A stretch of DNA of 33,676 nucleotides, taken from a virus. The first letter of the stretch is position 1. Every line of letters begins with the position of its first letter. The notes beneath the pieces were generated by a model that saw only the letters and a list, made by a program, of their open reading frames with translations, was not told the origin of the DNA and did not search any database. The translations under genes were made by a program, and so were the position numbers. Below are positions 2,776-31,951 of the stretch, one piece after another. The stretch covers positions 1 to 33,676 of the IMG/VR virus record IMGVR_UViG_3300022198_002462, one strand, 5' to 3'.

Positions 2776-2994
2776 ATGGCTGAGAAAGAAGGATTCACCC
2801 CGGAAGAGGAACCAATGGCAATCATCGTCATGGCAGATGGAACGTGGTGTTCTGTCCGGGCAGTCACCATGACCATCATCACCCAAAAGCAGCACATTCA
2901 ACTTTGTGACGGAGAGATCGAACCCAAGGACCTCGTGAATGTCCTTGATATACATTTCCCCACATACTTCCACCGCTTTCGCGAAGAGGACTGA
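2776..2994 (+). CDS. Small acidic hypothetical protein (72 aa)
   Basis: The ATG follows the preceding TAG with no gap, so translation is probably coupled. A GGAG-type signal lies about 7-8 nt upstream. The 72-aa product is Met- and Glu-rich with two short beta-like stretches (AIIVMADGTW, VRAVTMTIITQ). The function is unknown. It ends 4 nt before the DUF932 start. Confidence 0.6.
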   Translation: MAEKEGFTPEEEPMAIIVMADGTWCSVRAVTMTIITQKQHIQLCDGEIEPKDLVNVLDIHFPTYFHRFREED

Positions 2995-2998
2995 GAAA

Positions 2999-4033
2999 AT
3001 GGCTCACGAAATCACATCCAATGATCACCTCGTTCTTGCCGGTAAGGCCGCATGGCATGGCTTCGGCACTATCGTCGAGGACGCACCAACCACCTACGAA
3101 GCCCTGAAGTTGGCCCGCATGGAATGGAACGTCCTTGAGACCAACTACCTCAAGGGCTACGCCCCCACGATGACGGCGGACAATGAGTACCGCACCGACA
3201 AGTGGAAGTTCACGGTGAGGGAGGACACGCAAGAGATCCTCGGTTGCGTTACCTCAGGCTTCCAGCCAGTTCAGAACTCTGAACTAGCGAACTTCTGCTC
3301 GGAGTTGTCGATGGACTCCGTCGTCAAAGTGGAGTCGGCAGGTTCTCTCTTCGGTGGCCGCCGGGTCTGGTTCCTACTCAAGGCCGACACCTTCAACGTG
3401 GGGCAGAAGGAGGGGCCTACCTACGATCCCATCACTCCCTACATCCTCGTTGCCAACGGCCACGACGGATCCCTCTCCTTTACCGGCATGACGACCTCCG
3501 TCCGTGTTGTCTGCAACAACACGTTGTCATGGGCGTTGAAGGGCAAGGGTAAGGTGTTCTCCTACAAGCACACCGCCAACATCATGTCCCGCATCGACGA
3601 CGCCCGCAAGGCAATGCACAACGCATTGAAGGGACTTGACAACTTCAAGTATGCCTGCCACCATCTCCGCAGTCGCACCATGACGAGGCAGGAAGTGCAG
3701 GCGTTCTTCCTCGACGTGTACTCTCACGTCGTGGATCCCATCGTCAAGACCACCCGCGAAGAGCGGCTGAACAACCCGTTCTCTCGGAAGGAAGAGACGG
3801 ATCGTCGGTACGTCAACGCGATGGAGAACCTCGACAAGATCTGCCGCAACTTCGATGACGAGTATCGGATTGCGGGTGCCACCTACTGGAACGCATTCAA
3901 CGCGACCAGCAGTTGGCTTCAGGACCGCAATCGCAAACTCGGCGACCACCACACTTACAATGTCGTGATGGGTACCGCCGCCGACAACACCAGCAAGGCG
4001 TTCAAGTTCGCACTGACCGCCGCTGGTACCTGA
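2999..4033 (+). CDS. DUF932 phage/plasmid-like protein
   Basis: The protein has 344 aa. The N-terminus has the typical 'KAAWHGFGTIVEDAPTT' type of segment. The middle has the conserved 'GFTGMTTSVRVVCNNTLSWAL'-like region (about residues 160-180) that characterises DUF932, also known as the TIGR03299 phage/plasmid-like family, followed by a helical C-terminal half. The molecular role of the family is not established. It is often found near replication or recombination genes in phages and plasmids, as here. The ATG at 2999 is chosen because it lies 4 nt after the previous stop, has a GAGG upstream, and the MAHEI start fits the family better than the longer in-frame start at 2939. A strong terminator follows. 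Confidence 0.85.
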   Translation: MAHEITSNDHLVLAGKAAWHGFGTIVEDAPTTYEALKLARMEWNVLETNYLKGYAPTMTADNEYRTDKWKFTVREDTQEILGCVTSGFQPVQNSELANFCSELSMDSVVKVESAGSLFGGRRVWFLLKADTFNVGQKEGPTYDPITPYILVANGHDGSLSFTGMTTSVRVVCNNTLSWALKGKGKVFSYKHTANIMSRIDDARKAMHNALKGLDNFKYACHHLRSRTMTRQEVQAFFLDVYSHVVDPIVKTTREERLNNPFSRKEETDRRYVNAMENLDKICRNFDDEYRIAGATYWNAFNATSSWLQDRNRKLGDHHTYNVVMGTAADNTSKAFKFALTAAGT

Positions 4034-13120: not shown

Positions 13121-15768
13121 CAGGTGTTCCTTTCGCTGGTGTCGGTGTTCGTGGTGCGGCCCCTACAGATCACCGCCATCAACTTATAGTCTACGTCCGG
13201 ACAGAAGATCTCGATCCCCGGATTGAGGGCTGAGTCCTGAATTCCGTGGCGGCCCCGGGTCTGAATGCCCGTGGCAGTGAACGCCGCGTAGTCTTCGGAC
13301 TCCCCGTTCTTGATGGATTCCCCAATAATAGTACCAGAAAAATCCACGGGAATAGAAGAAACTGCCGCAGAATCCGATTCCGTGTTGTAGACAAGGCCCC
13401 GGAAGAACTTGTAGCCGGTAGTCCCTCCACTAACGTCGGAGAAGTGGCAGCCCACGGACGAGACCTGCTTGTTCTGGAAGAGGTCCATGGTGGACACCAC
13501 CTGATTATCCTCCGTCCGGACCATGGGCAGGGCCCCGCCGACGTACCGGAACAGGACCGGGCTCAGGGCGATAACGTCCCCCACCGCCAGAGCATCCCAC
13601 CGATTGAAGACGATGGATCCTTGGCCGTACCCCGGAAGAGTCAGGTTGGCTGTGCCGGGGGTGACGCTGAAAATCTGCTTCTTGGTACCGACCTTTGAGG
13701 GGTCTGAAGACGCTACGACGTAAGCGTAGGCCCCAACAAGATCGTAGCCAGAACCAGACGAAATGCTCTTAGCCGTAGAAGTGTCAGTCAGAGGCTCTAC
13801 CGTAGTGACACCGCTAGCCGTGGTGACTGATCCCACCTTGAAGATGACATCGCCGTCATATTCTAGAGTACGGATCGTGGAGGTCCCGTTTGGGATAGCA
13901 GTTGCACCGTTCGACGCCTTGACCCGGTCAAAGTCTTGGATGTAGACGCGGGGTTGCCACCCGTCGGGGATATTGGCTGAGGAGGTAGAGGGGGCATTTT
14001 GAAGGAAGAACGCCCGCTCCACCATGACAGTGTCTACCCCGATCGAGGTCCCGGTCTTGGGCCAGATCCCGGTGCGAACGTCGTCAAATGGAACGTCGTG
14101 GAACTCAGAGATGCGTCCAGTCCCGAACCACATGCAGACAGCCTTGTGCTGGTTGGGGTTCTGGATGTAGAGAGACGACGAGTACGGATCGTAACCAAGC
14201 CTCAGATCCGCCAAGTCATCGTACCAATCCTCCAACAGGAGGTTGTCGAGGGCTTGAACATCGTTGAGTTGGCCGTTGTTGGCGACGGACTTGAGGCCCT
14301 TCGTCGTCAGGAAGTAAACGACCGGGCCGACAGATGCCACACCGTTCCGGGCTGCAAGGCCAAAGCCAGCGTGGAGATCCTCGATCCTCAGGTAGATCCC
14401 GTTCCGGCGGATGTGGTACAGGCGGTCGTTGCTGAACCCGATTGCAAACTCGCCAGTCCTCACCAACTTCGAGACACGATTCTGGAAGACATCCGGAACG
14501 TACTTGTTGTTGATGGGGAAGAGTTCCGGACTTCGCTCCGTGAGCGAGGACCACCGAATCTCCCCGACGTTCCGCTTTCGCTCCGCCATGCTGATGGAGA
14601 CTTGGAAGGGTCCGGATCCTTCCGGCACATTCGTGGGCCCATCCGGATCACCAATGATGAGACTGCCCTCAAAGGGCACGGCGGCACCAGCGTACGGAAC
14701 CTCAGCGTCATAAATCGAACGGTCAAGATAGATGTCCTGCATCGCCAAAGAGATGTCGCTCAGGGCAAAACTCACCTTCTTGACGTTGAAGTCTGCCGTG
14801 TACGGAACCGATCCGTTGTCAGCGTCGGTGAGGTCAGCGACATCGTAGATGCCGTCAAGGTGCATGATGCTGCCTGCGTACACTCCCCCCACTGATTGGA
14901 GGCGGACAGACCGGAACAGGTAGATCTGGTCGTACTTCGTGGAGTCCACCTCGCAGTACAGCGTTACCTGCTGGGCGGATGCCCCGAAGTCTTCTTCTTC
15001 CTTGGAAGTAATTTCGCTGAGGGCGGTGCGGCGTCCCGTCAGGCTGTTGTGGAGGTAGAACGCGAAAGAGTAATCGCCCGCCTCAAAGGTGTGGTTGTCG
15101 CCAGCCTGCGTCTCCAGCACAAACCGGAACCGGGGGTACTCCTCCGCCGGGTCGCCCCACTGGGTCAGGCTGTCGAAAACCTCCTCAGTGGGGGGAAGGC
15201 CGGGGCCTGCGTCCAGTACCGTCGAAACGAAATTGCCAAGGCCCGTGGGGTCCTCAGTGTAGAAGACGCGGGGAGCCTCTCCCCTCACGAACACAAACAC
15301 GAAGCGGCCCATCGACACCACCTCCATGTTGGCAGTGGGGCTGACGTGACTTCCTCCCGTGTGATCACTCAGAAGAATGGTCCGCCAACTGGTAGCCGCG
15401 TCCACGGCGAGCGTGGTCTGGAAGTCCATGTAGACAGCGGCGTCTGAGCCCGTCTTCACTCGGTACACGAAACCGTGGCCGAAGTGATTCTCCTTGATCT
15501 GGAAATGGACGGGGTAGCAGTCCGTGACCCTCGAAGACTTTGTGGCGGCAGGAGGAGCGTCTGCTCCAAGACTGCTGAAGTCTTCGAGAGTGCCAAGAGT
15601 GTGGACATACTTGAAGCCCGAGGAAGGACGGCACCCAAACTTGCGAGAGCCATCAATGCCCACGACCTCATGGGCAAGACCCTCCCCACTGAGGGCGATT
15701 CGTTCAATGCCCTTGTTCTCAGAGGCAGTAATAGTTGGGTAGATCCACCGTCTATTGATCTCAGCCAT
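13120..15768 (-). CDS. Tail nozzle / tail tubular protein B-like protein (882 aa)
   Basis: The product has 882 aa, beta-rich throughout, beginning MAEINRRWIYPTITASENKG. The middle third carries propeller-like repeats of the kind 'GEFAIGFSNDRLYHIRRNGIYL ... VGPVVYFLTTKGLKSV ... GYDPYSSSLYIQNPNQ', reminiscent of podovirus nozzle (tail tubular B) proteins that form the tail tip below the adaptor. Length and position fit. The family match is by pattern, not motif, and a host-specificity or knob protein is an alternative. ATGA overlap (15766-15769) links it to the 85-aa gene upstream. Two exact repeat motifs (14884, 15187) lie inside. Confidence 0.55.
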   Translation of the reverse strand: MAEINRRWIYPTITASENKGIERIALSGEGLAHEVVGIDGSRKFGCRPSSGFKYVHTLGTLEDFSSLGADAPPAATKSSRVTDCYPVHFQIKENHFGHGFVYRVKTGSDAAVYMDFQTTLAVDAATSWRTILLSDHTGGSHVSPTANMEVVSMGRFVFVFVRGEAPRVFYTEDPTGLGNFVSTVLDAGPGLPPTEEVFDSLTQWGDPAEEYPRFRFVLETQAGDNHTFEAGDYSFAFYLHNSLTGRRTALSEITSKEEEDFGASAQQVTLYCEVDSTKYDQIYLFRSVRLQSVGGVYAGSIMHLDGIYDVADLTDADNGSVPYTADFNVKKVSFALSDISLAMQDIYLDRSIYDAEVPYAGAAVPFEGSLIIGDPDGPTNVPEGSGPFQVSISMAERKRNVGEIRWSSLTERSPELFPINNKYVPDVFQNRVSKLVRTGEFAIGFSNDRLYHIRRNGIYLRIEDLHAGFGLAARNGVASVGPVVYFLTTKGLKSVANNGQLNDVQALDNLLLEDWYDDLADLRLGYDPYSSSLYIQNPNQHKAVCMWFGTGRISEFHDVPFDDVRTGIWPKTGTSIGVDTVMVERAFFLQNAPSTSSANIPDGWQPRVYIQDFDRVKASNGATAIPNGTSTIRTLEYDGDVIFKVGSVTTASGVTTVEPLTDTSTAKSISSGSGYDLVGAYAYVVASSDPSKVGTKKQIFSVTPGTANLTLPGYGQGSIVFNRWDALAVGDVIALSPVLFRYVGGALPMVRTEDNQVVSTMDLFQNKQVSSVGCHFSDVSGGTTGYKFFRGLVYNTESDSAAVSSIPVDFSGTIIGESIKNGESEDYAAFTATGIQTRGRHGIQDSALNPGIEIFCPDVDYKLMAVICRGRTTNTDTSERNT

Positions 15769-16025
15769 CAGTCTTCGCTTTCATGAGGAAAGAGTTCGTT
15801 CCACTGTTTTCGTCTTTTGGCACACCCACAGTTAGATTTGAAGGAGGCAGAGAGTTTCTCTCCGACGTTCTCTAACTTCATTTTCCGGAGAGCCCGGGTA
15901 ATGTCGTCTCCGAGACCCCTGCTCACGCCGTCATAGTCTTTGCACGACAAGCAGTCGCTGTTTGTGGGAGTTCCACTGAAGTGTCCCAGCGTGCAGTAAG
16001 GCCCATTCAGATTGTAGCACTTCAT
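15768..16025 (-). CDS. Small Cys-rich phage protein with C-terminal CGCxKRR motif (85 aa)
   Basis: I chose the ATG at 16025 because it forms an ATGA overlap with the stop of the upstream gene. A longer reading from a TTG at 16127 would overlap that gene by about 100 nt. The 85-aa product has an N-terminal Cys cluster (CYNLNGPYCTLG, then CLSCKDYD). Next comes an amphipathic helix and the ending 'NCGCAKRRKQWNELFP'. C-x-C-x-x-R-R endings with a following Asn occur in many small proteins near phage tail or fibre genes. Metal binding by the Cys pairs is plausible but not shown. The gene shares the low GC of its upstream neighbour. Confidence 0.6.
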   Translation of the reverse strand: MKCYNLNGPYCTLGHFSGTPTNSDCLSCKDYDGVSRGLGDDITRALRKMKLENVGEKLSASFKSNCGCAKRRKQWNELFPHESED

Positions 16026-17098
16026 GGTGTTGGACAATTTGCAGCCCCCCAATCTTCGATGGTAGACCTTGCCGTGGCCCGGATAACTTGAGTCCTGCTC
16101 ACAGTTGCAGGAAGACTCAAAACGCAAGGACCCGTATCGTAAATATCTACTCCAGCAGCACTTCTAGTGTGAGGGGCTTGCTGTTCTCCTTGCTCACAAA
16201 CTTCGGTCTCCGGGTAATTCAGATCTGGCAACCCAATAGGCAAATACCCAATACCTAATGCCCTCTCCATAGCAAAGCACATGGCCTCCGTGTTTCCTTG
16301 GGCCAACTCGTAAGACCCAATATCATCATCGCAATCTACTCGGTTGTTCAGAATTCGATGTAAGTGGGCGTAAGGGAAGTAATAATCGTTTTGGTCAGAG
16401 ATTGGAAATGTCTCTTGATAAACGATACTTCCACTTTCATCAAACTCTTGGACAAGTGTTTGTCCACTCCTTATCTGCCGATACGCGACAGACAATGTTT
16501 CAGGAAAAATGCTAGGGGTAAAAGCACTTCCTGCCCCATTTAAGACTCCGCCGTTCGGGATGAGAATCATGCACCTTTCTTCTTCATCACAATTGTAATC
16601 ATCGTTTACAATATCCCATGCGTAGGCAGAAAAATTTGGGCCGGGTTCATTAGAGCCAACGAAGAGAAAGTTGGAATTAGGACTTCCAAGATTTGACCAT
16701 GTGACAGTGTAATCAGTTGTCACAACATTTCGTATTCGCTCTGAACCCAAGAAGTAGTAAGTCACACTCTCCGAGGAGTACGAACCACTTCCGGTAATAG
16801 AAAGACCACCGCTGATATTGCCATTGCTGTAGGGGTTAGATTTCGGGCATGTGCAAATCCACTCAGGTGTTCCTATTCCACCTCGGTTTAGAATGTACCC
16901 CGGCTGCCCAATCGCAATAAACGAAAAGTTACGAGACATCGTCTCGTAATCGTCATCAAAACAATCTGAAGAAGAATAGGTGTCAGTAAAAGTTCCAGTG
17001 GCTGTGTAATTCAGATCTACATACATGCAGTCAAGCCTGCACCTTTCGGGGGGGCAGTCACAACAGCACACGGAACCAGCAAGTCCACCTCTACTCAT
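16022..17098 (-). CDS. Cys-rich tail-associated protein of unknown family (358 aa)
   Basis: The ATG at 17098 lies 2 nt after the upstream stop. The reading frame runs further 5' but inside the neighbouring gene. The N-terminus carries a dense cysteine cluster (CCCDCPPERCRLDC, residues 11-24). After it comes a Tyr/Ser/Thr/Asn-rich beta region (for example ATGTFTDTYSSSDC, SGSYSSESVTYYFLG), and the middle has further Cys. This is unusual for a cytoplasmically folded virion protein. It sits among fibre-like genes, so receptor binding is a fair guess. Base composition drops to about one third GC in sampled 60-nt lines (16381, 16561), against above 60% in neighbouring genes. It also has no copy of the repeated 10-mer. 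Both suggest recent acquisition. Confidence 0.6.
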   Translation of the reverse strand: MSRGGLAGSVCCCDCPPERCRLDCMYVDLNYTATGTFTDTYSSSDCFDDDYETMSRNFSFIAIGQPGYILNRGGIGTPEWICTCPKSNPYSNGNISGGLSITGSGSYSSESVTYYFLGSERIRNVVTTDYTVTWSNLGSPNSNFLFVGSNEPGPNFSAYAWDIVNDDYNCDEEERCMILIPNGGVLNGAGSAFTPSIFPETLSVAYRQIRSGQTLVQEFDESGSIVYQETFPISDQNDYYFPYAHLHRILNNRVDCDDDIGSYELAQGNTEAMCFAMERALGIGYLPIGLPDLNYPETEVCEQGEQQAPHTRSAAGVDIYDTGPCVLSLPATVSRTQVIRATARSTIEDWGAANCPTP

Positions 17099-17100
17099 GA

Positions 17101-18165
17101 CTAAACACAAGCCACACCAAGTGCAGGCATTCCTCCCATGATGTAGACGCGGCCAATGCCCCAAGACGCGGGAGCCTCAATCTCGACTGCCGTCACGATC
17201 GTGTCCACGGCATAGGCTTGAAGCGTGAAGGAGGCTACGACAGTTGATGGCTCGTTCTTGACGTTGACACTGAAGTCGTAGAGGACTCCAGCATTCGTGA
17301 ACTCCAAGTCTTTGGAGCCACCGTCGTCCGCCAACACCACCTCCTGTACGGGATAGGAGTAGTAATCGACATTCCCGACGCTCCCCGCTGTAACCTCCCC
17401 CGTGATCTGGACAATGGTGGGGCGGCCCGTGGTGGAGATCGTGACCTTCGTATTGGTGCTGTCTGCCGCACCCACTGCCTTGATACCAAGCCCGTCCTCA
17501 AAGATGAGAGATGCGTTCTGGGCTCCAGCCTCAAAGGTCGTGGGATTCCCCCCACTATCGTTGACGGTGATGGTTTCGTGGAACCAGCGGTCAAACGAGA
17601 GGTTCACCGTCTGGCCGCTGGCGTCCGTCTTGATGTAATAGGATCGTCCGTTGGCTCCGCTCGTCCAGTCACCGGAGATCGTGAAGGTGTCGTCTCCTCC
17701 CGATGCGGAGATCGTGCCAGCATCCGACGCTACGTTGCCGTATCCGTCCACCGCCGTCACACAAGAAACCAGAAACGAGCAGAGGTCGTCGCCCTTATCC
17801 AACTCGTAGTTGGTACCGCCCGCAACATTCGGGCTGGTTGTGATCCTGATGAAGTCCGTATTGGCAGTCGTTATCGAAGTGTATGCGTTCCCCCCACCTC
17901 CACCACCGTCCGGGAAGTCAAAGTAGAAAGAATTCGGGGAAAAGAGACTGATGTCTCCCATCGTGTTAACAAGAGACAAGCCGTTGCCATAACCAGACGC
18001 CATGGAATTGGCGTTGGAGTGTGGCACCCTGAACGCAAAATCAGTCAGGTTTCCCGGAATCGCCATCGACTCCGAAAACCCTGACATGATGTGGGGAGGA
18101 TGGAGTCGAGGTACGATCGGTACCTCAACCCCGTCCATGTTGCTTGTGTCATTCAGGTACGTCAC
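17101..18165 (-). CDS. Fibre-like structural protein (354 aa)
   Basis: The start is a GTG at 18165 that overlaps the stop of the holin-like peptide (GTGA, 18162-18165). The protein is rich in Gly, Ser, Thr and Asp and strongly beta-patterned, with a six-glycine run (about residue 88) and a terminal region (SFTLQAYAVDTIVTAVEIEAPASW) typical of fibre or tip domains. No chaperone or enzymatic motif is visible. It is probably a tail fibre, tip or short tail appendage protein. One exact repeat motif (17547) and one near copy (17889) occur in it. Confidence 0.55.
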   Translation of the reverse strand: MTYLNDTSNMDGVEVPIVPRLHPPHIMSGFSESMAIPGNLTDFAFRVPHSNANSMASGYGNGLSLVNTMGDISLFSPNSFYFDFPDGGGGGGNAYTSITTANTDFIRITTSPNVAGGTNYELDKGDDLCSFLVSCVTAVDGYGNVASDAGTISASGGDDTFTISGDWTSGANGRSYYIKTDASGQTVNLSFDRWFHETITVNDSGGNPTTFEAGAQNASLIFEDGLGIKAVGAADSTNTKVTISTTGRPTIVQITGEVTAGSVGNVDYYSYPVQEVVLADDGGSKDLEFTNAGVLYDFSVNVKNEPSTVVASFTLQAYAVDTIVTAVEIEAPASWGIGRVYIMGGMPALGVACV

Positions 18166-18299
18166 TTGTCGTCCAACTTATCCTTGATGTCTTGAAGGTC
18201 CTGCCGGATCCCTTTGACCATAGTGTAGTACACCAGTACCCACACAATCAGGGGCGTGACGTTGTTCTCAAGAATCGGAATCAGGGCTGTTGGTTCCAT
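18162..18299 (-). CDS. Holin-like single-TM peptide (45 aa)
   Basis: The short open frame begins MEPTALIPILENNV, continues into a hydrophobic segment (VTPLIVWVLVYYTMV, about residues 14-28) and ends with a charged helix (KGIRQDLQDIKDKLDDK). One transmembrane segment followed by a charged C-terminal helix is the layout of small phage holins of the BhlA/UviB kind and of similar lysis accessory peptides. The GTGA overlap with the next gene and the 19-nt overlap with the dockerin-domain gene support it being translated. No endolysin is visible in this window, so the lysis role is an inference from topology. Confidence 0.6.
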   Translation of the reverse strand: MEPTALIPILENNVTPLIVWVLVYYTMVKGIRQDLQDIKDKLDDK

Positions 18300-18832
18300 G
18301 GTGCCTCCCATCCCCACTGGGTGTTTAGAATCCCGAGGTCACTTCCCCCCACTTTGCCGTCCCAGTCGAGGTCGGACCGCTGGGCGTCGGTGCCCCAATC
18401 CGCAAACAGCAGGCCCCGGTCTTCGCCGTCCACCTTGCCATCCTCGTTGATGTCGCCTACAGGATACAGTCGGATTGCCCAATCAATGGGCACGACCTCT
18501 GTCTGGAGCGGCCCGACCGCAGTCTTCCACTGTGCGACGATCACCTTCTGCGACCACTCCCAGCAGACCTCCCCATCCGTTACCACGGGCTTCTTGCCGT
18601 CCGGGATCTTCCACCGCATCTGAAACGTGTGGAGCCGGTTCGACGCCATCTTGTTCTCGGTGGTGATCTCGCCGTCCATCTGCCACTCCCAGTCGGTGGT
18701 CTCGATGGTGTAGATCACATCGGTCTTCTTGTCGGTATTGTCGTCATGGGCTTCAACCACCCAGATCCCGTCAAGGAAGAGCCGGGTGGCCTGCATGGCG
18801 GTAAGTGCTACTGCACAAATCGGGACTTGCAT
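18281..18832 (-). CDS. Protein with C-terminal dockerin type I-like domain (183 aa)
   Basis: Residues 126-174 show two calcium-loop half-repeats: GDINEDGKVDGEDRGLLFAD with a following WG, and SDLDWDGKVGGSDLGIL with a following N-T-Q-W-G. The Asp/Asn positions 1, 3, 5, 9 and 12 of each loop fit dockerin type I. The N-terminal about 120 residues are Trp-rich and beta-like (DWEWQMDGEI, HTFQMRWKI), with a mildly hydrophobic first 20 residues that is not a convincing signal peptide. Dockerins bind cohesins in cellulosomes and occur widely, with unclear partners, in Planctomycetota. In a phage late operon it may be a virion or adhesion domain or an acquired host gene. GGAG lies upstream of the ATG, and a 211-nt non-coding gap precedes it. 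Confidence 0.75.
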   Translation of the reverse strand: MQVPICAVALTAMQATRLFLDGIWVVEAHDDNTDKKTDVIYTIETTDWEWQMDGEITTENKMASNRLHTFQMRWKIPDGKKPVVTDGEVCWEWSQKVIVAQWKTAVGPLQTEVVPIDWAIRLYPVGDINEDGKVDGEDRGLLFADWGTDAQRSDLDWDGKVGGSDLGILNTQWGWEAPWNQQP

Positions 18833-24486: not shown

Positions 24487-24735
24487 CTACTTCTTCTTAC
24501 GGGATTGCCAAGAGACACGGGCAGGGCCCTTCTTGGAAGAGGTGCCCTTCTTGGTACACATCGCTTTGGTAGGGCGGCAGGCCGGATACGGACGCTTGCT
24601 GCCACCCTTTGCAGACTTCCGACCGCAAGGCCCTCCGGTCTTGCAGTCCACCCATCCCTTCCCCTGATTCCGAGAGAACCAGCCGTGCAGACCCTTCTTC
24701 TTCTCAGCGGAGAAGTTGGCTTTCTTCTTTGCCAT
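24487..24735 (-). CDS. Small basic Cys-containing protein, DUF5872-like pattern (82 aa)
   Basis: The ATG at 24735 forms TGATG with the stop of a tiny upstream frame. The protein MAKKKANFSAEKKKGLHGWF... shows the pattern 'GLHGWFSRN-x-GKGWVDCKTGGPCGR ... YPACRPT-x-x-MC', then a Lys/Ser-rich tail. I associate this Trp-Phe/Trp-Val-Asp-Cys/Pro-Cys-Gly-Arg pattern with a family of unknown function shared by aquatic phages and large algal viruses. The DUF5872 label is from memory and should be verified. It is probably a nucleic-acid-associated or metal-binding virion component. An upstream GTG or other longer start is rejected because it would overlap the next small gene. Confidence 0.65.
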   Translation of the reverse strand: MAKKKANFSAEKKKGLHGWFSRNQGKGWVDCKTGGPCGRKSAKGGSKRPYPACRPTKAMCTKKGTSSKKGPARVSWQSRKKK

Positions 24736-24782
24736 CAGCAGCGACACTCCCCCCACTTCTTGCCGCAACGGGGGCAGACCAT
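24735..24782 (-). CDS. Candidate 15-aa zinc-knuckle-like microprotein
   Basis: The frame reads MVCPRCGKKWGECRC and then stops, with the stop overlapping the start of the DUF5872-like gene in TGATG (24733-24737). C-x-x-C plus C-x-C gives four possible metal ligands in 15 residues. The ribosome binding site is weak. It may be a real microprotein, only a coupling leader, or chance. The exact repeat motif 24748-24757 lies in its last codons, in a third reading phase (Lys-Trp-Gly-Glu). Confidence 0.3.
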   Translation of the reverse strand: MVCPRCGKKWGECRC

Positions 24783-24796
24783 CTCGGAGGCGGGGA

Positions 24797-24937
24797 TCAC
24801 TTCTTGCCCCGCTTGCCCGGTCCGGACTTGCCCTTGCGGCACTTGACGGCAGCCCCTGAGGCGTAGGCTGACGGCCACACCTTGTACTTGGACTTGGCCC
24901 AACGGGCACACTTGTCGAGGGGCTTCTTCTTCGCCAT
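24797..24937 (-). CDS. Small basic protein with KVWPSAYASG motif (46 aa)
   Basis: The ATG at 24937 overlaps the preceding stop as TGATG. The protein MAKKKPLDKCARWAKSKYKVW... contains 'KYKVWPSAYASGAAVKCRKGK', a motif ('VYPSAYAN/S') recurring in tiny basic proteins of aquatic phages and algal viruses, followed by a Lys/Gly-rich tail. The function is unknown. Charge and cassette context suggest association with nucleic acid or the virion interior. It is too short for routine gene callers but well supported by coupling and motif. Confidence 0.65.
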   Translation of the reverse strand: MAKKKPLDKCARWAKSKYKVWPSAYASGAAVKCRKGKSGPGKRGKK

Positions 24938-25071
24938 CAGTAGCCTCGGCGACGGGGAGCCTTCTTGCTCATCGCCTTCTTGCCCATGACCTTCTTGCCC
25001 TTGGGCATCTTGCCACCGCAGTCACATCCCATCTTGCCACACGCACACTTGCTCTTCTTGCCGTACTTCAT
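24937..25071 (-). CDS. Small Lys/Cys-rich protein (44 aa)
   Basis: The ATG at 25071 starts 1 nt after the stop of the DUF6321-like gene. The product begins MKYGKKSKCACGKMGCDCGG. It has four cysteines (C-x-C, C-x-C) in residues 9-18, followed by Lys/Met/Gly repeats (KMPKGKKVMGKKAMSKKAP) and RRRGY. Longer in-frame starts exist but run through the neighbouring gene. It could be a small metal-binding DNA-condensing protein. No family is recognised. Confidence 0.6.
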   Translation of the reverse strand: MKYGKKSKCACGKMGCDCGGKMPKGKKVMGKKAMSKKAPRRRGY

Positions 25072-25072
25072 A

Positions 25073-25336
25073 TCAGCACGCCCACCTTTTACGGGCAAGA
25101 CACGCCCGCTTCTTGGGCGTCTTCTTGCAGTCAATGTTGAACTTGTCGATCTGACCCTTGTTGCGGGCACAGAACGAACGCTTCCGGGGACCACCCCCGG
25201 GCTGAGGAGCCTGTAGGTTTGAGCCAGTTTTTCGGTTGATTGATGCACGGCCCTTGGCGGTGAGACCACCAGCCTTGGACTTGCAGCCGCTCTTGATCGA
25301 GCAGCCCTTCATCGCACCCTTTTTCTTCTTCGCCAT
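25073..25336 (-). CDS. Small basic DUF6321-like protein (87 aa)
   Basis: The product begins MAKKKKGAMKGCSIKSGCKS. It contains 'AGGLTAKGRASINRKTGSNL', then 'PRKRSFCAR' and the ending 'TPKKRACLARKRWAC'. This order (GGLTAKGR...NR.TGSNL..P / RR.SFCAR..G / R..LA.KRW.C) is very close to DUF6321, a family of small basic Cys-containing proteins in phages, bacteria and large viruses with unknown role. It is the first gene after the capsid gene and a hairpin. Confidence 0.75.
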   Translation of the reverse strand: MAKKKKGAMKGCSIKSGCKSKAGGLTAKGRASINRKTGSNLQAPQPGGGPRKRSFCARNKGQIDKFNIDCKKTPKKRACLARKRWAC

Positions 25337-25394: not shown

Positions 25395-26918
25395 TCAGTC
25401 GTCCGCGTAGACGCGATCTTCAGTCACACCAGTCAACTTCAGACCGGCGGGCTGATCGGGGATCAACTGCATTCGCAGCATACCCGGCATCTGAACCGCT
25501 TCCGTCAGAGCGTTGGCGGCATTCTGGTACGGCCACTTCACGCTGCTGAGGCCGGTGAGAGCCGGGACCACAAACCGGAACGGCACGAAGGCGTCGGCTT
25601 CCGACATGTTCTGGAGACCGGCGTAGTCCGGCGGGACGTACCGCTTCCAGTTGCTGCCAGAAGTCTTCCAGCCGTAAACCGTTTCCTTCTCGACGTACTG
25701 CGAGGTGTGACCCTTGTAGGTACGTCCCTCAAACGTGAACGCGAAGCCCTCGTTCGATCCCTCGTTGTTGAGGTTCGACAGGTTGCCGCTACGCTCGATC
25801 TGGTACTGACCGATCTTCTGGGCCTCGTAGGAGAGCCAGACACCGTCAGACGCAACGAGGCTGTCGATGGTCTGACCCAACTTGGCCTTCGCGACGTGGA
25901 AGCGACGGAGGTACTGACGCAACTTATGTTCCGTCAGGACACCGACGTTCGACTTCAGCATCGACTTGAACTCGGGGTGGGTATCGACATTGATCTGGGC
26001 ACCCGAGATCGACTCGTCACCAAGGAGGTTTCCGTTGGTCTTGAGCCAAGAGTTGACGCCCGCAATACCCGTGAACGTCGGGTTGCCGGAACCATCGGCA
26101 TGAGTTCCGTCGTTCTTCTCACCGCTATTGGCGTAGACAATATCGTCACCAATAGCAATGGTTCCCGTAATGTCAGTCGCAGCGATAAGCGTCACCACAC
26201 CGAGAAGGTCATCAACCTTTTCGACATAGAGAGACTGACGAAGGGGGGTACCAGTAGCCTCGTTGCGACGAGTGTTGCCGTTATAAACGTCAACACGCTG
26301 ACCCGCAAAGAAGCGATCGTACGCCAGTTCTTCGGTAGTAATGGCCCACCGATAAGGGCCAGAACCAGTCTTAGAAACCGTCAAAATCCGACCGAGACGG
26401 TAATTGGTGTTCTGGCTGAGGTACCAGTAGTTGCAGAGCGTATGGCTCAGGTTCTGGGCAAAGCCCTGAAGGATCGGAGCCACAACGTCACCAACGACCG
26501 CCGGGGTCGCATCCATCTGCAACTCACCAAGGGTGAGGGAGAGGTTGGTGTACATCGCCCGCATCGGAACAGTAAGCCGGAACGTCTTCGGCTTGGCACC
26601 GTCCATCGGGTCAGGGAACGAGTTGGTCACCGTGTTGCGGCGGAGACGAGCACCAAGGTCGGCGTTGTCCGGATCACCGTACAGCATAAAGTCACCGACA
26701 GGAGCACCCTGCTCAATGACGCCGGTCATGCCGGTGCGGTACAACTTGTTGACCTGAAAGTCCTTCGAGAACTCGCTGACCGGGCCAACGCCCTGCGAGG
26801 ACACGACGGTATCACGCCAAATGGGATCGAGAGTAGGGAGGATCGTGTCGATCTGCTTCGACAGGATCTCTTCAATCCGCGTACTCTCCTTGTCAAAGAT
26901 ACTACCTGCGGTAGCCAT
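25395..26918 (-). CDS. Major capsid protein (507 aa)
   Basis: The 507-aa protein is preceded by scaffold and portal, the classical order, and followed by a hairpin. It begins MATAGSIFDKESTRIEEIL and shows balanced alpha/beta composition. An N-terminal helix is followed by an extended arm region ('VNKLYRTGMTGVIEQGAPVGDF'), a central helical backbone stretch (PAVVGDVVAPILQGFAQNL) and a beta-rich C-terminal half. An HK97 fold is expected for this position but cannot be proven from motifs. The coding region lacks any copy of the repeated 10-mer and appears codon-regular, as expected for a highly expressed gene. Confidence 0.75.
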   Translation of the reverse strand: MATAGSIFDKESTRIEEILSKQIDTILPTLDPIWRDTVVSSQGVGPVSEFSKDFQVNKLYRTGMTGVIEQGAPVGDFMLYGDPDNADLGARLRRNTVTNSFPDPMDGAKPKTFRLTVPMRAMYTNLSLTLGELQMDATPAVVGDVVAPILQGFAQNLSHTLCNYWYLSQNTNYRLGRILTVSKTGSGPYRWAITTEELAYDRFFAGQRVDVYNGNTRRNEATGTPLRQSLYVEKVDDLLGVVTLIAATDITGTIAIGDDIVYANSGEKNDGTHADGSGNPTFTGIAGVNSWLKTNGNLLGDESISGAQINVDTHPEFKSMLKSNVGVLTEHKLRQYLRRFHVAKAKLGQTIDSLVASDGVWLSYEAQKIGQYQIERSGNLSNLNNEGSNEGFAFTFEGRTYKGHTSQYVEKETVYGWKTSGSNWKRYVPPDYAGLQNMSEADAFVPFRFVVPALTGLSSVKWPYQNAANALTEAVQMPGMLRMQLIPDQPAGLKLTGVTEDRVYADD

Positions 26919-26929
26919 GGGAGTTTACC

Positions 26930-27817
26930 TCACGCTTTGGAGTCGCCACCGGGATCGGAGAGCGACCGGAGAATCTGATCAGTGGTCCAGTTACGCAACT
27001 GGCCCTCCACATCACCGTAGGACTTGCCCTTAGTATCGGGCAACTTCACAGGGTCCTTGCGGTAGAGAGTCTCGGTCTGCCCCGCCGTTTCCGGAACCCG
27101 GCCAATCTTGCCGGTGTCTCCGATTACCGTGAGCATGTCCTTGGCAACCTTGTTGGCCGCCTTCTTGACTTCTTCACCAAGCCAAGACTCGTCGAAAGAA
27201 CCGGCGTAATTTCGCCGCTGCCGGAGGTTTTCAAGGGCCTGAGCCCTGACTCTCTCCGCAATGTTCTCGCGAGCCTTGGAGGCTTCTTCAGTTGTCCGAG
27301 TGGTGTTGAGCCACTCCATCAACACCTTACCATCCGAATCGCCTTCGATAGCACTAGAAAGCGAATTTTCCAGATTTTGCTGGAGCATCTGAGCCCGCAT
27401 CTTCAGGACCTGATCGTTCAGGCTGTCGGTGCGGGGATCATAAGCGGGCTGAGAAGCCTGCGGGTTTTCTGTCATCTGGGGTCCCTTGTCATAGATTTTT
27501 ACCCATTCCTCGACTTGTTCAGGAGCGTAGTTCATAGAGAGAAGGATCTCGCGAGCATCCCTCTTCTTGACCTCAACATCTGTATCGGGGTTCATAAGAC
27601 GAGAGGTCGCCTCATGAAATTGTTCAAGACCCTCCGCGTACTGCTGAAGGGTTCCGTAGTTCTCGTAGACTTCCGCCAGTTCCCGTGCGGAGTATTCCTT
27701 TCCCCCCACTTTGATCGTCTGGTCCAGATCGACAGTGTTGTTGGCCGGAGCCGCAACACCTCCATCAATCGTAGAGGCTTCGCTGGTTTCGGCGACTTCG
27801 TTGTTCTCTTCAGCCAA
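26930..27817 (-). CDS. Scaffolding protein (295 aa)
   Basis: The protein is acidic, with a low-complexity N-terminus (EENNEVAETSEAS) and a long helical middle rich in Glu/Gln (YENYGTLQQYAEGLEQFHEA). It also has a charged C-terminus, the composition typical of scaffold proteins. It lies directly between portal and capsid genes. The start is a TTG at 27817. An exceptional AAGGAG six bases upstream decides it, and the start overlaps the portal stop by 8 nt. The assignment is from composition and order. Confidence 0.7.
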   Translation of the reverse strand: MAEENNEVAETSEASTIDGGVAAPANNTVDLDQTIKVGGKEYSARELAEVYENYGTLQQYAEGLEQFHEATSRLMNPDTDVEVKKRDAREILLSMNYAPEQVEEWVKIYDKGPQMTENPQASQPAYDPRTDSLNDQVLKMRAQMLQQNLENSLSSAIEGDSDGKVLMEWLNTTRTTEEASKARENIAERVRAQALENLRQRRNYAGSFDESWLGEEVKKAANKVAKDMLTVIGDTGKIGRVPETAGQTETLYRKDPVKLPDTKGKSYGDVEGQLRNWTTDQILRSLSDPGGDSKA

Positions 27818-29804
27818 GGTTGGCTCCTTGCATCATGCCGGGACCCGGTTGAGGTCCCATGGGTGGACGGGCAGCCTGTTCTGCAAAGATTGCGGCGGAG
27901 TCTGGATTCGGCACCATCGCAGGCAGAGAGGCCCCCATGAATTGGATCAGGGCTTCACGGTACTTCTTGAACTCGTCAATAACAAGCGGGTCAGCCTTCA
28001 TCATCAGTGGGCTGGACATGAAGGATGAAAGCACCCTCATCTGGAACTCTGGGCGGCTAGTGTGGGGGGTCAGGATGACCTGCCCCGGATCCGTCCCGTT
28101 TCCATAAAGAGTAAGGATGTTCTGCACAACTTGTTCGTAAGCAGATTGATCTTCTTCCATCCAAATGGCGAAGTCAAGACCTTCCTTCAACGCCAGCAAT
28201 TTCAGACCATCGGGGTCCGTCAGCCCGGCCTGAAGCATCTGCATTGCTTCCTGCTTTCGGACAACTTCCGAACGGGGATTGACCTGCCGCACCGAGAACG
28301 TCAGGCTTGCCACGTTCGGGATGGGGTTCTGCTCAAAGGAAATCTGGCTGTTGTCAAAGTCGATCACCGCACCTGCAAGGTTGAGGTCCAAGGACTTCAC
28401 CGGGATTGGCCGGGGCTTCAGCACAAGTTCGCGACTTGCCGACGCCACCATGCTCCGGTACATCTTCCCGAACGCCTGCACCACACCCATGGTGGGGTTG
28501 GTCATGGCCCGGTTGATTTGCTCATCAAGGAACTGGAGGCCGGTCGCAGAGTCGATGCGGCCCTTCTCTTGAATGAGATCTTGGACAGGGTTAATGCCTT
28601 GCATTAACTGCTTGGCAAAAGCAGCGGTCTTGCCCGGGATGTCACCCGCGTTATGGGGAGAGATCACAAATGGCGAAAACTTCTCGTTCAACGGGTCAGG
28701 AGCATACGAGATCATGCGGAGTCCGTTGCCGACCTCCCGCAGGATTGACCGCTCGTTGAAGGAGCCTTGGGGCATCACAACGACGCCGTATCGGTCCAGT
28801 TCCCGGATGTTGTTGAAGAGAGCCTTCAGCATCTTTTCCATCTCTCGGTTGATGCTAAAGAGAAGATCGAAGAGTCCCGCTCCGTGGAACGTACCTGTCT
28901 CCATAAAACGGGCAAAGCCCACAGGACAGTACATCTGAGATCCAGAGAAGTCCTGATCGTCGATCAGGTAATCTCCGGAGCAGATGACGTAACGGGAGCA
29001 GGTGCCCCGAGGGCCGTCGATCCAAAGTTCCCGGATCCGCACCACCGTCATGGCGTCGGCAGACTGACTCTTATACCCCTTGTTGTTGAAAGGGTTGACG
29101 CTATAGCCAGTGTCGTAAGTCTCGTCGGGATCCTCGATGGGGTCCCCGATCTCAATTTCGTAAAACTCGCAGTCTTCAAGGTTTCGCTTGACGCGATCCC
29201 CAAACTTCTCCGTCAGGGTTTCTAGCGGCACAAGTCGCTGTCGAATCATGCCGCACTGCTTGGTGTAGTCCTGTGCAAGAGAAGGGAATGGGAACAACTC
29301 TTTGGGGTGGATGACCTCAAGGTCGCTCGTAAGACCAATGGTTGGATGATCAAGGATGTGGCCCTGAATGCCACAAGACCCAAGAGCCGTGAAGATGTGG
29401 GCAAACTTGGTGGAGACTTCTGCAATCTGCTCGTCGGAAGTCAAAGCATCCGCCAGCATCTGGGCCGTAGCCCGCTGCCGAATCATGGGAAGGCTGGTGC
29501 CTGTCCGCAGGACCTTGGGGCGGAGATCCATGGCGGAGATTCGAGCCGAAACCCGGTCGATCGCCGACAGCATCTCTTGCGACTGGAACTCCATGTTCCC
29601 CTCCTCGTCGAGGTAGTGGGGGGACAGGTGCCCGGTCGAGGGATCAAAAACATCAAACCGCCTCATGCCATTGAGGTAGTAGTACGTCAGTAGCCAAGTG
29701 ATGCGGCGGTAGTTGAGCCGCGACATCTCCTTTTCGGCATGATCACGAATGACCTGACAAATCTCAACCTTGTTCTTCGGCAGTTTGAATTGGTGCTGAG
29801 ACAT
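27810..29804 (-). CDS. Portal protein (664 aa)
   Basis: The product has 664 aa, located between terminase and scaffold. The N-terminal third is helical with 'RRITWLLTYYYLNGMRRFDVFDP'. The middle is beta-rich (IGLTSDLEVIHPKELFPFPSLAQD; RIRELWIDGPRGTCSRYVIC) and contains the wing-to-stem type helices ('LFDLLFSINREMEKMLKALFNNIRELDRYGVVV' in part). The C-terminus is helical and ends Pro/Met/Gly-rich. Size and layout suit a podovirus portal. AAGGA lies about 8 nt before the ATG. One exact repeat motif (29615) sits near the N-terminus as Ser-Pro-His. Confidence 0.8.
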   Translation of the reverse strand: MSQHQFKLPKNKVEICQVIRDHAEKEMSRLNYRRITWLLTYYYLNGMRRFDVFDPSTGHLSPHYLDEEGNMEFQSQEMLSAIDRVSARISAMDLRPKVLRTGTSLPMIRQRATAQMLADALTSDEQIAEVSTKFAHIFTALGSCGIQGHILDHPTIGLTSDLEVIHPKELFPFPSLAQDYTKQCGMIRQRLVPLETLTEKFGDRVKRNLEDCEFYEIEIGDPIEDPDETYDTGYSVNPFNNKGYKSQSADAMTVVRIRELWIDGPRGTCSRYVICSGDYLIDDQDFSGSQMYCPVGFARFMETGTFHGAGLFDLLFSINREMEKMLKALFNNIRELDRYGVVVMPQGSFNERSILREVGNGLRMISYAPDPLNEKFSPFVISPHNAGDIPGKTAAFAKQLMQGINPVQDLIQEKGRIDSATGLQFLDEQINRAMTNPTMGVVQAFGKMYRSMVASASRELVLKPRPIPVKSLDLNLAGAVIDFDNSQISFEQNPIPNVASLTFSVRQVNPRSEVVRKQEAMQMLQAGLTDPDGLKLLALKEGLDFAIWMEEDQSAYEQVVQNILTLYGNGTDPGQVILTPHTSRPEFQMRVLSSFMSSPLMMKADPLVIDEFKKYREALIQFMGASLPAMVPNPDSAAIFAEQAARPPMGPQPGPGMMQGANLG
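27824..27829 (-). promoter_or_regulatory. Strong Shine-Dalgarno that fixes the TTG start of the scaffold gene
   Basis: AAGGAG on the minus strand lies six bases before TTG 27817-27815. It lies inside the portal coding end. It would allow efficient initiation at a non-ATG codon, in line with the high scaffold demand. Confidence 0.6.
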
Positions 29805-30066
29805 TGCGTAGGTCCTTCGCGGCTACCCCCCCGGGCTTCCAGTGAGGCGGGATGTCGTAGGGATTGAAGTGGATATCCGAAAGATTCAAATTATTTGTAG
29901 ATCTGGGTTGACTTTCAACCGGCAGGTCGGCATTCCTTGCCTGCCCATAATAAGCCCTTGCCATGGCTTCGTACAGAAAATATGGAATAGTTACAGGTTG
30001 ATGTGCGGGATCAGACCCGACTCCCCCCACTAGGGGGTCCATTGGCTGCTCGGGATAGGACTGCAT
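29764..30066 (-). CDS. Hypothetical protein between terminase and portal (about 100 aa)
   Basis: This frame fills the otherwise non-coding gap between the large terminase stop (30011) and the portal start (29804). It overlaps the first by 56 nt if ATG 30066 is used and the second by 41 nt. ATG 30042 is the alternative start. Neither has a clear ribosome binding site. The product is Pro/Asn-rich with 'IPYFLYEAMARAYYGQA' and 'FNPYDIPPHWKPGG'. No family is recognised. It lies where some podoviruses carry a small head-associated gene. Confidence 0.45.
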   Translation of the reverse strand: MQSYPEQPMDPLVGGVGSDPAHQPVTIPYFLYEAMARAYYGQARNADLPVESQPRSTNNLNLSDIHFNPYDIPPHWKPGGVAAKDLRNVSAPIQTAEEQG

Positions 30067-31951
30067 CGAGTAGTTCCGGACTAAGGTTAGGAAGCCGGGA
30101 GGCCCAGAGGCATCCGGACTCGTCGTAGATCTCGCCGTCGAGAATGTGTTCTTCGGGGGTGCGGTCATCTTCTACTTCACCGGGAGCCCGGTGAATACGG
30201 CCCTTCAGGATGTTGCCCGACATTGAGACGGTGTCAAGGTGGTCGTCCTTGGCAAGACCACCGTCGGCGACCTCGGGGTTGAACTGCTCGATCTGGTCAA
30301 AGAGATTGGACCAGTGCCGGTCCATCCGTCGCTCCAACGGCAACTTGATGAGGCCGTTCTCAAACCGGAACTGGAGGGATCCAATCCGGCTGGTCTTCGA
30401 CATCATACCGACCTTGAGCGGCACGATCTTGGGCATGTGGGCGACACCGAACATCTCGGTGGCCCGCTGCTTCACAAGACTGTCGAGAGTCTGGTAGAGA
30501 GCGATGCTCTGACGGACGACCTCGGGATGGATGGAGGGCACCCGCCACTTGTCTGCAATCTCAAACACCTGCTTGATGAGGGTGTTCTCGTCACACTGCC
30601 CACCCCAGATATCCAACACAAACAACTCGTTGTCGGGGGTGGCCGCCATGACGGTGGCTACCTTGAAGTCAGAGTCGCCGGTGGAGGTCCACGACGTATC
30701 AATCGTCATGAAGACCCAAGACTCCCGGAGGAAGTCGGTCATCGGCATCTGCTTCGTGTTGCCGTCCAACCCCTTCCAGTTCATCAGAGTGGCGGACTCG
30801 CGGGGACTCATACCGTAGGCTGCGTCGATGCCCGTCAGCCACCAGCGGTGGGAGTCGTCGAGTTCTGGGAAGAAGGCGTCGTCCGACGCCCCGGGATCAG
30901 CCATGTACTCAGACGCAAAGTTCGCCGAACCAATCTGCTCCCGGATCTCTTCGAGGCTGATCCTCTCCTTAAGACGAGGATCCTCCTCCTTTTGCTTACG
31001 GTCCACCGGCCACATTTCCGGCCAACATGAGACAAGGCGATCCTCCTGATCCTTGTATGCCGCCTTGATGATCATGCGTGACCAGTGATCAAAGCGGGGG
31101 TCCTTGGCACGCAGACCCTTCTCGGTGGCCTGCGTCTCCATCGCGTACCACGCATAGTGGCGTCGAGACACGAAGGTCGCTAGCCACCGGAGGCTGGTGC
31201 CGGGTCGGGTGATCATGGGCATGACCACCTTGAAGAGAAGCGTGTCCATGTACGACCGAAGCACCGACATCGAGGTCGAGGCACGGGGATCGTACTCAGG
31301 GTCATCTAGAACGTAGCAACGGGGACGACCACCACGCTGACGCGACTCGGAAGAAATTGCCCGGAACCACGACCCGTTCTTCAGATACATCAACTCGATG
31401 CCGAAGGAGGCTTCGCCTCTGCGGGGCACAATTCGTTCGTCAGGAAACTCAGGACCCCAGTCATCGTGGATCCGGGCGTTCTCTTGGAACTGGGTCTTGA
31501 TGATCTGACCCGTCTGCTTCGCGTTGTCGTTGGTGGAAGTCGCGTAGATGAAGGAGTAGCCGGGCCTCGTCAGCATCTGGAGAAGGATGGACTTGCGGAT
31601 GCAGTTGGACTTCGCGAAACCACGGGGTGCAATCGCGATCGAGGCTCGGTTCTGTGCCCACTCCTTGTAGATACCGAGGTGCCCGTCTGGTAGTGGGACG
31701 GGATCCTCGTCATAGAACATCGGGTTGAAGTCGTCTTGCTCGTCGGGGGTGAGATACCAATGATCGAAGAACAGCATCGACCCGATGAAGCGGTCGGCCT
31801 TGTCTTGCGGCGTCGTGACAGGAACCAGCCACTGACGACATGCGTTGACGCGGGCTTCACGCTGCCCGTCCTCCGTCAACTCCATGTAGTCTTCGGGGAG
31901 GGGAAACAGTTCGTTTCCTTCAGCCCTTGTCTTGATGCGTTTGATCCGCAT
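30011..31951 (-). CDS. terL: Terminase large subunit (packaging ATPase-nuclease)
   Basis: The protein has 646 aa. The ATPase part shows a Walker A-like loop APRGFAKSN (residues 108-116) and a Walker B strand CYVLDDPE (212-219) with the catalytic acidic pair. The nuclease part has the RNase H-like 'MTIDTSWTSTGDSDF' segment (415-429), 'ELFVLDIWGG' (442-451) and 'DDHLDTVSM' (568-576), providing the metal-binding Asp residues. The family cuts concatemeric DNA and pumps it into the procapsid through the portal. Portal, scaffold and capsid follow directly. The ATG at 31951 overlaps the upstream frame by 32 nt. The gene lacks exact copies of the repeated 10-mer except one (30022) beside its last codons. 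Confidence 0.93.
   Translation of the reverse strand: MRIKRIKTRAEGNELFPLPEDYMELTEDGQREARVNACRQWLVPVTTPQDKADRFIGSMLFFDHWYLTPDEQDDFNPMFYDEDPVPLPDGHLGIYKEWAQNRASIAIAPRGFAKSNCIRKSILLQMLTRPGYSFIYATSTNDNAKQTGQIIKTQFQENARIHDDWGPEFPDERIVPRRGEASFGIELMYLKNGSWFRAISSESRQRGGRPRCYVLDDPEYDPRASTSMSVLRSYMDTLLFKVVMPMITRPGTSLRWLATFVSRRHYAWYAMETQATEKGLRAKDPRFDHWSRMIIKAAYKDQEDRLVSCWPEMWPVDRKQKEEDPRLKERISLEEIREQIGSANFASEYMADPGASDDAFFPELDDSHRWWLTGIDAAYGMSPRESATLMNWKGLDGNTKQMPMTDFLRESWVFMTIDTSWTSTGDSDFKVATVMAATPDNELFVLDIWGGQCDENTLIKQVFEIADKWRVPSIHPEVVRQSIALYQTLDSLVKQRATEMFGVAHMPKIVPLKVGMMSKTSRIGSLQFRFENGLIKLPLERRMDRHWSNLFDQIEQFNPEVADGGLAKDDHLDTVSMSGNILKGRIHRAPGEVEDDRTPEEHILDGEIYDESGCLWASRLPNLSPELLDAVLSRAANGPPSGGSRV

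Follow-up and report, generated by a model that had tools for sequence, protein, structure and literature searches.

The internal proteins of phage T4 enter the head by an N-terminal capsid-targeting sequence of about 10 residues, which is cut off by the head protease (PMC7697877). In the internal protein IPIII the first 10 residues suffice; positions 4 and 7 serve the targeting and positions 8 and 10 the processing (PMC9026906). Lysines of the T4 internal proteins touch the DNA phosphates (PMC3012670). Here we compare with these proteins a cassette of very small basic genes in an uncultured aquatic phage, known from the IMG/VR record IMGVR_UViG_3300022198_002462. The window referred to below is the whole stretch of 33,676 bases that was analysed. 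An earlier sequence-only reading had described the cassette as four coupled basic genes of 44-87 aa behind the capsid gene, and perhaps a fifth of 15 aa.

The cassette and its head-gene neighbourhood

On the minus strand of the window a terminase gene is followed by a portal-size gene, a scaffold-like gene, a 507-aa gene and then, after 58 bases, by the cassette starting with D:

30011..31951, minus strand: terminase large subunit (phrog_38, E=1.2e-42)
27810..29804, minus strand: putative portal, 664 aa, judged by position (portal-size gene) and by relatives in the same loci
26930..27817, minus strand: putative scaffold, 295 aa, acidic (53 D+E vs 36 K+R), judged by position and by relatives in the same loci
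25395..26918, minus strand: putative major capsid protein, 507 aa, judged by position only, with the cassette as the next genes downstream
25073..25336, minus strand: module D, 87 aa, 6 Cys, pI 11.0, DUF6321 (PF19846)
24937..25071, minus strand: Lys/Cys/Gly/Met-rich protein, 44 aa, 4 Cys, pI 10.3, no family
24797..24937, minus strand: module S, DKCARWAKSKYKVWPSAYASGAAVKCRK protein, 46 aa, 2 Cys, pI 10.6, similar to the N-terminal half of DUF5872
24735..24800, minus strand: VIPASEMVCPRCGKKWGECRC microprotein, 21 aa, frame and position conserved in relatives
24487..24735, minus strand: module W, GLHGWFSRNQGKGWVDCKTGGPCGRK..YPACRPTKAMC protein, 82 aa, 4 Cys, pI 10.9, similar to the C-terminal half of DUF5872

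The 664-aa protein in portal position matched no Pfam or PHROG family. The 507-aa protein has 143 relatives in IMG/VR; it was without a match in Pfam, PHROGs, PDB and isolate phage records, and a comparison with the capsid protein of P-SCSP1u gave no confirmation of its capsid identity. We labelled it a capsid protein because it is placed after the terminase, the portal-size gene and the acidic scaffold-like gene. The 507-aa family is probably an undescribed capsid lineage.

All four larger genes of the cassette were found as the sequence-only reading had described them, with pI values of 10.3-11.0, 30-36% K+R and just 1-2 acidic residues in each protein. Consecutive genes of the cassette overlap by one base or are separated by gaps of 1-60 nt. 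The suspected fifth gene proved to be real, but its length is 21 aa and not 15 aa, from a GTG start. This GTG overlaps the stop codon of S, and the TGA stop overlaps the start codon of W. The frame V[IT]PASEM[IVT]C[PS]RC[GE]KxWxECxC was found between S and W in all approx. 10 relatives with a sufficient gap. Nine distinct DNA versions of the gene differed mostly at third codon positions, with 59, 74 and 272 differences at positions 1, 2 and 3; this ratio is overestimated because the collecting pattern fixes part of the peptide. A gene for a CxxC..CxC microprotein of this kind lies below the size reach of standard gene callers.

For the 44-aa protein, Pfam and PHROG searches gave no family. Its slot holds a different small K-rich ORF in relatives, e.g. 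MPNVNGKKYPYTKKGKAAAKKAM...GGCGKM, and was filled in the loci L012, L014, L016, L019, L025, L029 and L203.

Further genes were noted elsewhere in the window. A dockerin-like EF-hand repeat protein (INEDGKVDGEDRGLLFADWG...) is encoded at 18281-18832 on the minus strand (Pfam Dockerin_1 E=0.005, below cutoff). Dockerin-like repeats are common in Planctomycetes, so the protein is a possible hint to a host from this group. Two more cysteine-rich proteins (CTWCGLC..CCCDCPPERC and CNCEQD..CKLSNTMKC..CLSC), for which Pfam gave nothing, are encoded in the tail region at 16022-17164 and 15768-16127 on the minus strand. The plus strand carries a DUF932 protein at 2939-4033 and a Sak4/AAA_24-like recombination ATPase at 284-1183; these genes probably represent the early arm of the phage.

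Families of the modules

Module D is a full member of DUF6321 (PF19846; E=1.9e-16, 60.9 bits, cutoff 28.5) and also matches 8 PHROG families, every one without an assigned function. Modules S and W cover complementary halves of the DUF5872 profile (PF19197, 116 positions), S at profile positions 5-38 (E=0.022, 15.8 bits) and W at positions 43-95 (E=0.021, 15.9 bits), both under the curated cutoff of 27.5; a PF19197 search of the window genome returned nothing. Genes in which S and W are fused also occur among the relatives (24 ORFs), and the collected loci contained 216 D ORFs and 253 W ORFs. The earlier claim of three known motifs therefore stands for DUF6321, whereas VWPSAYASG and the DUF5872-like motif are halves of one family.

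Module S matched phrog_727 (E=2.8e-8), and both PHROG 727 and PHROG 3477, which comprise long phage proteins with no assigned function, match D and S of the window. The earlier reader knew of no described function for the cassette proteins, and the families matched by the cassette indeed carry no assigned function. In the literature searched no mention of DUF6321 was found, and DUF5872 is annotated as a gene of the alga-infecting virus CpV-BQ1. D belongs to the cluster T4-GC119 (S-SM1 proteome, PMC3037559).

Profile searches of the PDB gave no credible match for D, S or W. An AlphaFold model of D consisted of three helices (pLDDT 79, pTM 0.44); it found no match in a PDB fold search, and in BFVD it gave DUF6321 proteins and weak matches only. 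The AlphaFold model of W (pLDDT 60) was too poor for use.

The D, S and W modules were found in phages that infect Synechococcus, Prochlorococcus, Roseobacter and Flavobacterium. Among bacteria and archaea (one genome per species) D was found on 52 contigs, mostly from metagenome or single-cell assemblies, as expected for phage genes.

Linkage to head genes in relatives

Relatives were gathered from three queries, the capsid-position gene, D and W. The modules recur together in hundreds of contigs. According to the sequence-only reading the proposal would fall if the proteins were missing from virions and the genes unlinked in relatives, and linkage is what we found. For 44 relatives of the capsid-position gene the downstream sequence extended over 2.4 kb or more; their capsid proteins range down to approx. 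48% identity. D was present in 41 of them and D, S and W in 35, although these counts are not independent because the loci are related. The module order in the 35 full sets was D-S-W in 32 and S-W-D in 3. Where that capsid gene is absent, 24 of the 34 loci found by D hold both S and W no more than 3 kb away, and S is also present at every locus found by W (32/32).

Among the neighbouring genes in unrelated phages are members of the families of major head proteins, head-tail adaptors and terminases, and also ribonucleotide reductase and psbA. In P-SCSP1u the D gene (PSCSP1u_00016) lies directly behind the capsid gene. Between the scaffold and capsid genes we found D in S-TIP37 and a DUF5872-like W (PSCSP2_00022) in P-SCSP2. 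The D, S and W genes of T4-type contigs, L255 for example, do not lie next to the capsid gene.

Capsid-targeting tags and the prohead protease

One group of T4-type contigs encodes D, S and W proteins that are all extended at the N-terminus by a short stretch ending in [I/L]xE, and the basic part of the protein starts just after it. The extensions in contig L257 are MQSLFESRFIEVLEE (D), MLTFKQFLTE (S) and MKFDNLVNLILE (W), and other tags in T4-type relatives are MLTFKQFLLE, MKFDALVNLILE and MQCLFESRFIQVIEE. The D protein of S-SZBM1 begins with MKTFKQYITE, and Syn1 has MKSFKQLRIDINE. MLTFKQFLLE and three siblings agree with T4 IPIII at all four of the positions 4, 7, 8 and 10.

A looser tag pattern, written after some of the sequences had been viewed, was present in most family genes of the T4-type loci (45/53), in 48/433 of the remaining genes at these loci and in 10/647 family genes elsewhere. 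Because the pattern was written post hoc, co-occurrence with the T4 prohead protease (PF03420) was used as an independent check. The protease was found in 7/15 tagged records vs 0/31 untagged records (p=1.2e-4) and T4-type gp23 in 8/15 vs 0/31; the values 7 and 8 are lower bounds, because many tagged records are fragments. One tagged record (L263) was grouped through the alignment and not through the pattern. The proteins of the window are without a capsid-targeting tag, their N-termini being MAKKK or MKYGK, and PF03420 is absent from the window record, which may be incomplete.

Fused proteins of cyanomyoviruses

Possible protease sites were counted in 21 cyanomyovirus proteins carrying the modules, 59 modules in all. 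A gp21-like [ILVMF]xE ending was found at most 5 residues upstream of 35 modules, with 6.7 expected at random positions. The excess was seen for D (10/16), S (9/16) and CWxGY (13/15) modules, and was not significant for W-like (2/8) and CxxC (1/4) modules. Where a Glu lies within three residues of a module, the P3 residue was hydrophobic in 28/37 cases vs 162/673 elsewhere (p=2e-10); the p-values for the fused proteins overstate independence, because these proteins are homologous. Examples of such sites (slash) are ISE/GKKDACY and LEE/KKNCW in S-CREM2 and LDE/GAAWT in S-SKS1. The natural reading of these sites would be that the fused protein is a precursor, cut in the prohead to yield mini-modules.

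One stretch of the fused cyanophage proteins resembles W and was initially taken for it. This assignment was rejected; the W profile was marginal in S-B43 (E=0.035) and did not find the fused proteins of S-CREM2 and S-SCSM1, and therefore only S and D are claimed in the fused cyanophage proteins. Extra short Cys modules (CWxGYxxxGxK...NCV, CKPGYYWCYTDKKCK and [YF]C[PK]xC..C) were seen at L333:19809-21362, L245:2611-3504 and L249:2764-3594. Two modules of the fused proteins, CWxGY..NCV and [YF]C[PK]xC, are zinc-like, and the likeness between the latter and the 21-aa protein is no more than suggestive.

Detection in virions

Protein gp160 of S-CREM2 (128342-129235) contains the S module (E=2e-21) and was detected in the virion proteome of this phage (7 unique peptides, coverage of 13.1%; PMC10665884 Table 3). 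The protein S-SCSM1_29 contains both modules, S at E=1e-21 and D at E=5e-25, and is named 'virion protein', a label that in this record marks structural proteins and not terS, terL or hypothetical neighbours. Mass spectrometry of S-SCSM1 identified 45 virion proteins (PMC9602691), and we infer that the label denotes this detection. The peptides of both phages are assigned to whole proteins, not to modules. The tagged D protein of S-SZBM1 (165 aa, near-perfect tag) is missing from the list of 30 virion proteins of that phage; its tryptic detection would be poor because it is small and K/R-rich.

Location and role of the cassette proteins

We consider it probable that D, S and W are capsid-internal, DNA-contacting proteins which function like the internal proteins of T4. 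Since relatives in other phages carry T4-style tags and relatives were also found in purified particles, the cassette is most likely packed with the DNA inside the capsid. For the T4-type relatives a head location is well supported by the tags, the association with the prohead protease and the published virion mass spectrometry. For the window phage, with neither tag nor PF03420, an internal location would rest on homology and gene position. The earlier claim of capsid-internal proteins is thus upheld in the T4-type relatives, and for the window phage we infer the same. The charge of the cassette proteins suggests that they may bind or condense DNA, and to call them a minimal nucleoprotein set, as was proposed, is fair but unproven.

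The proteins might also travel in the head and serve, once ejected, in host takeover or against host defences, similar to T4 IPI* directed against a restriction enzyme; contact with DNA would then be mere transport. T4 internal proteins have only the targeting tag in common and form a diverse defence set (PMC3012670), and the aromatic and Cys motifs of D, S and W are strongly conserved, beyond the needs of a bulk counter-ion. Such aromatic motifs point to a particular fold or binding partner and not to mere charge neutralisation. An anti-restriction protein would however be expected to diversify with its host, whereas D, S and W remain recognisable, the same three modules being present in Synechococcus, Prochlorococcus, Roseobacter and Flavobacterium phages and DUF5872 even being annotated in an algal virus. 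We regard an effector role as unlikely.

Cysteine pattern

Paired cysteines may bind metal or form disulfides. A zinc site of the Cys4 type should show as four conserved metal ligands in each member, and disulfides as Cys gained and lost almost only in pairs. We counted Cys in representatives below 85% identity (39 D, 42 W and 32 S). The number of Cys was even throughout D (39/39) and W (42/42) and in 30/32 of the S representatives, and perfectly co-varying Cys columns were 3-10, 66-98 and 81-90 in D, 20-60 and 34-51 in W and 4-31 in S. Only two Cys are present in 23 of the 39 D and 9 of the 42 W representatives, and S has two at most. The Cys are thus gained and lost almost only in pairs, and four conserved ligands in each member were not found in D, W or S. 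As two-Cys members are common, a single-chain Cys4 zinc site is no defining feature of the modules, and disulfides fit better. In S variants of L168, L169, L005 and L006 both Cys are lost and the xPSAYA core is kept, which indicates that the Cys pair is dispensable to the S fold.

These numbers bear on the possibility that the cassette encodes non-virion, zinc-binding nucleic-acid proteins (small fingers or ribbons) that are active in the infected cell, e.g. in late transcription or packaging initiation. The CxxC pairs of the 21-aa protein (CPRCGKKWGECRC) and the four conserved Cys kept in most W members would agree with it. However, the even Cys numbers, the perfect co-variation of the pairs and the many members with two Cys, too few for a single-chain Cys4, speak for another use of the Cys, and the tags, the neighbouring head genes and the two virion detections point to particles. 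Such a role is quite improbable, and the metal binding proposed in the sequence-only reading is disfavoured for D, S and W; zinc binding by the 21-aa and 44-aa proteins is possible.

That the proteins are outer decoration or cement proteins of the capsid, as genes of small size beside the capsid gene could suggest, is highly improbable, because T4-type capsid-targeting tags send proteins to the prohead core and because the shell of P-SCSP1u consists solely of the major capsid protein, with no cement protein by cryo-EM (PMC10575957, in the text of which no virion proteomics was found), although D follows the capsid gene there, which disfavours an outer location.

Proposed mechanism and its meaning

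In the mechanism we propose for capsid-internal, DNA-contacting proteins, D, S and W together with the 44-aa and 21-aa companions would be late proteins that are packed with the genome in the phage head. In T4-type phages they would enter the prohead via the N-terminal capsid-targeting sequence or as a multi-module precursor, and the gp21-type protease would release the modules. In phages without a gp21-type protease, including the window phage, the modules would be made directly from separate small genes beside the head genes. The lysine/arginine surface would most likely lie against the packaged DNA. The paired Cys would most likely form disulfides after the virion has left the reducing interior of the cell, and these bonds would open again when the proteins are ejected into the next cell; for the cassette proteins both this disulfide state and the ejection are suppositions.

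More tentatively, the modules could make up a disulfide-locked nucleoprotein kit that is common to large algal viruses and to tailed phages with unrelated capsids. This kit would be packed with the DNA, set in the oxidising exterior and dissolve in the reducing cytoplasm of the host, and in cyanomyoviruses it would be made as a protease-cut polyprotein of mini-modules. Because the Cys are so strictly paired, the idea that redox state controls such a nucleoprotein can be tested directly.

Hundreds of phages from marine and fresh waters carry DUF6321 and DUF5872 modules without an assigned function, and placement in the head would give them a testable role. The packaging of capsid-internal proteins would thereby reach beyond T4, and a polyprotein route for the loading of small proteins is suggested.

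Comparison with known systems

The head ejection proteins of SPN3US and phiKZ are also head-internal and processed by a gp21-related protease (PMC5694885), but they are much larger, have long propeptides and are cut at AxE or SxE sites. The proteins of PHROG 727 and 3477 are several hundred residues long with spacers, whereas the modules of the window are separate genes; the likeness is that the fused cyanophage proteins hold D and S modules in one chain. DUF5872 differs in that it is split into two genes in the window and fused in some relatives. The T4 proteins IPI, IPII and IPIII are similarly small basic head proteins, and the tag of the D, S and W relatives, which matches the four targeting and processing positions of IPIII, co-occurs with gp21 and gp23. 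In their mature parts the T4 internal proteins showed no sequence similarity to D, S and W. The latter differ as conserved modules with paired Cys, in phages of unrelated capsids that often lack any T4-type protease, as does the window phage. The window proteins are not members of the T4 group by its defining tag and protease, and the T4 internal proteins are their closest functional parallel.
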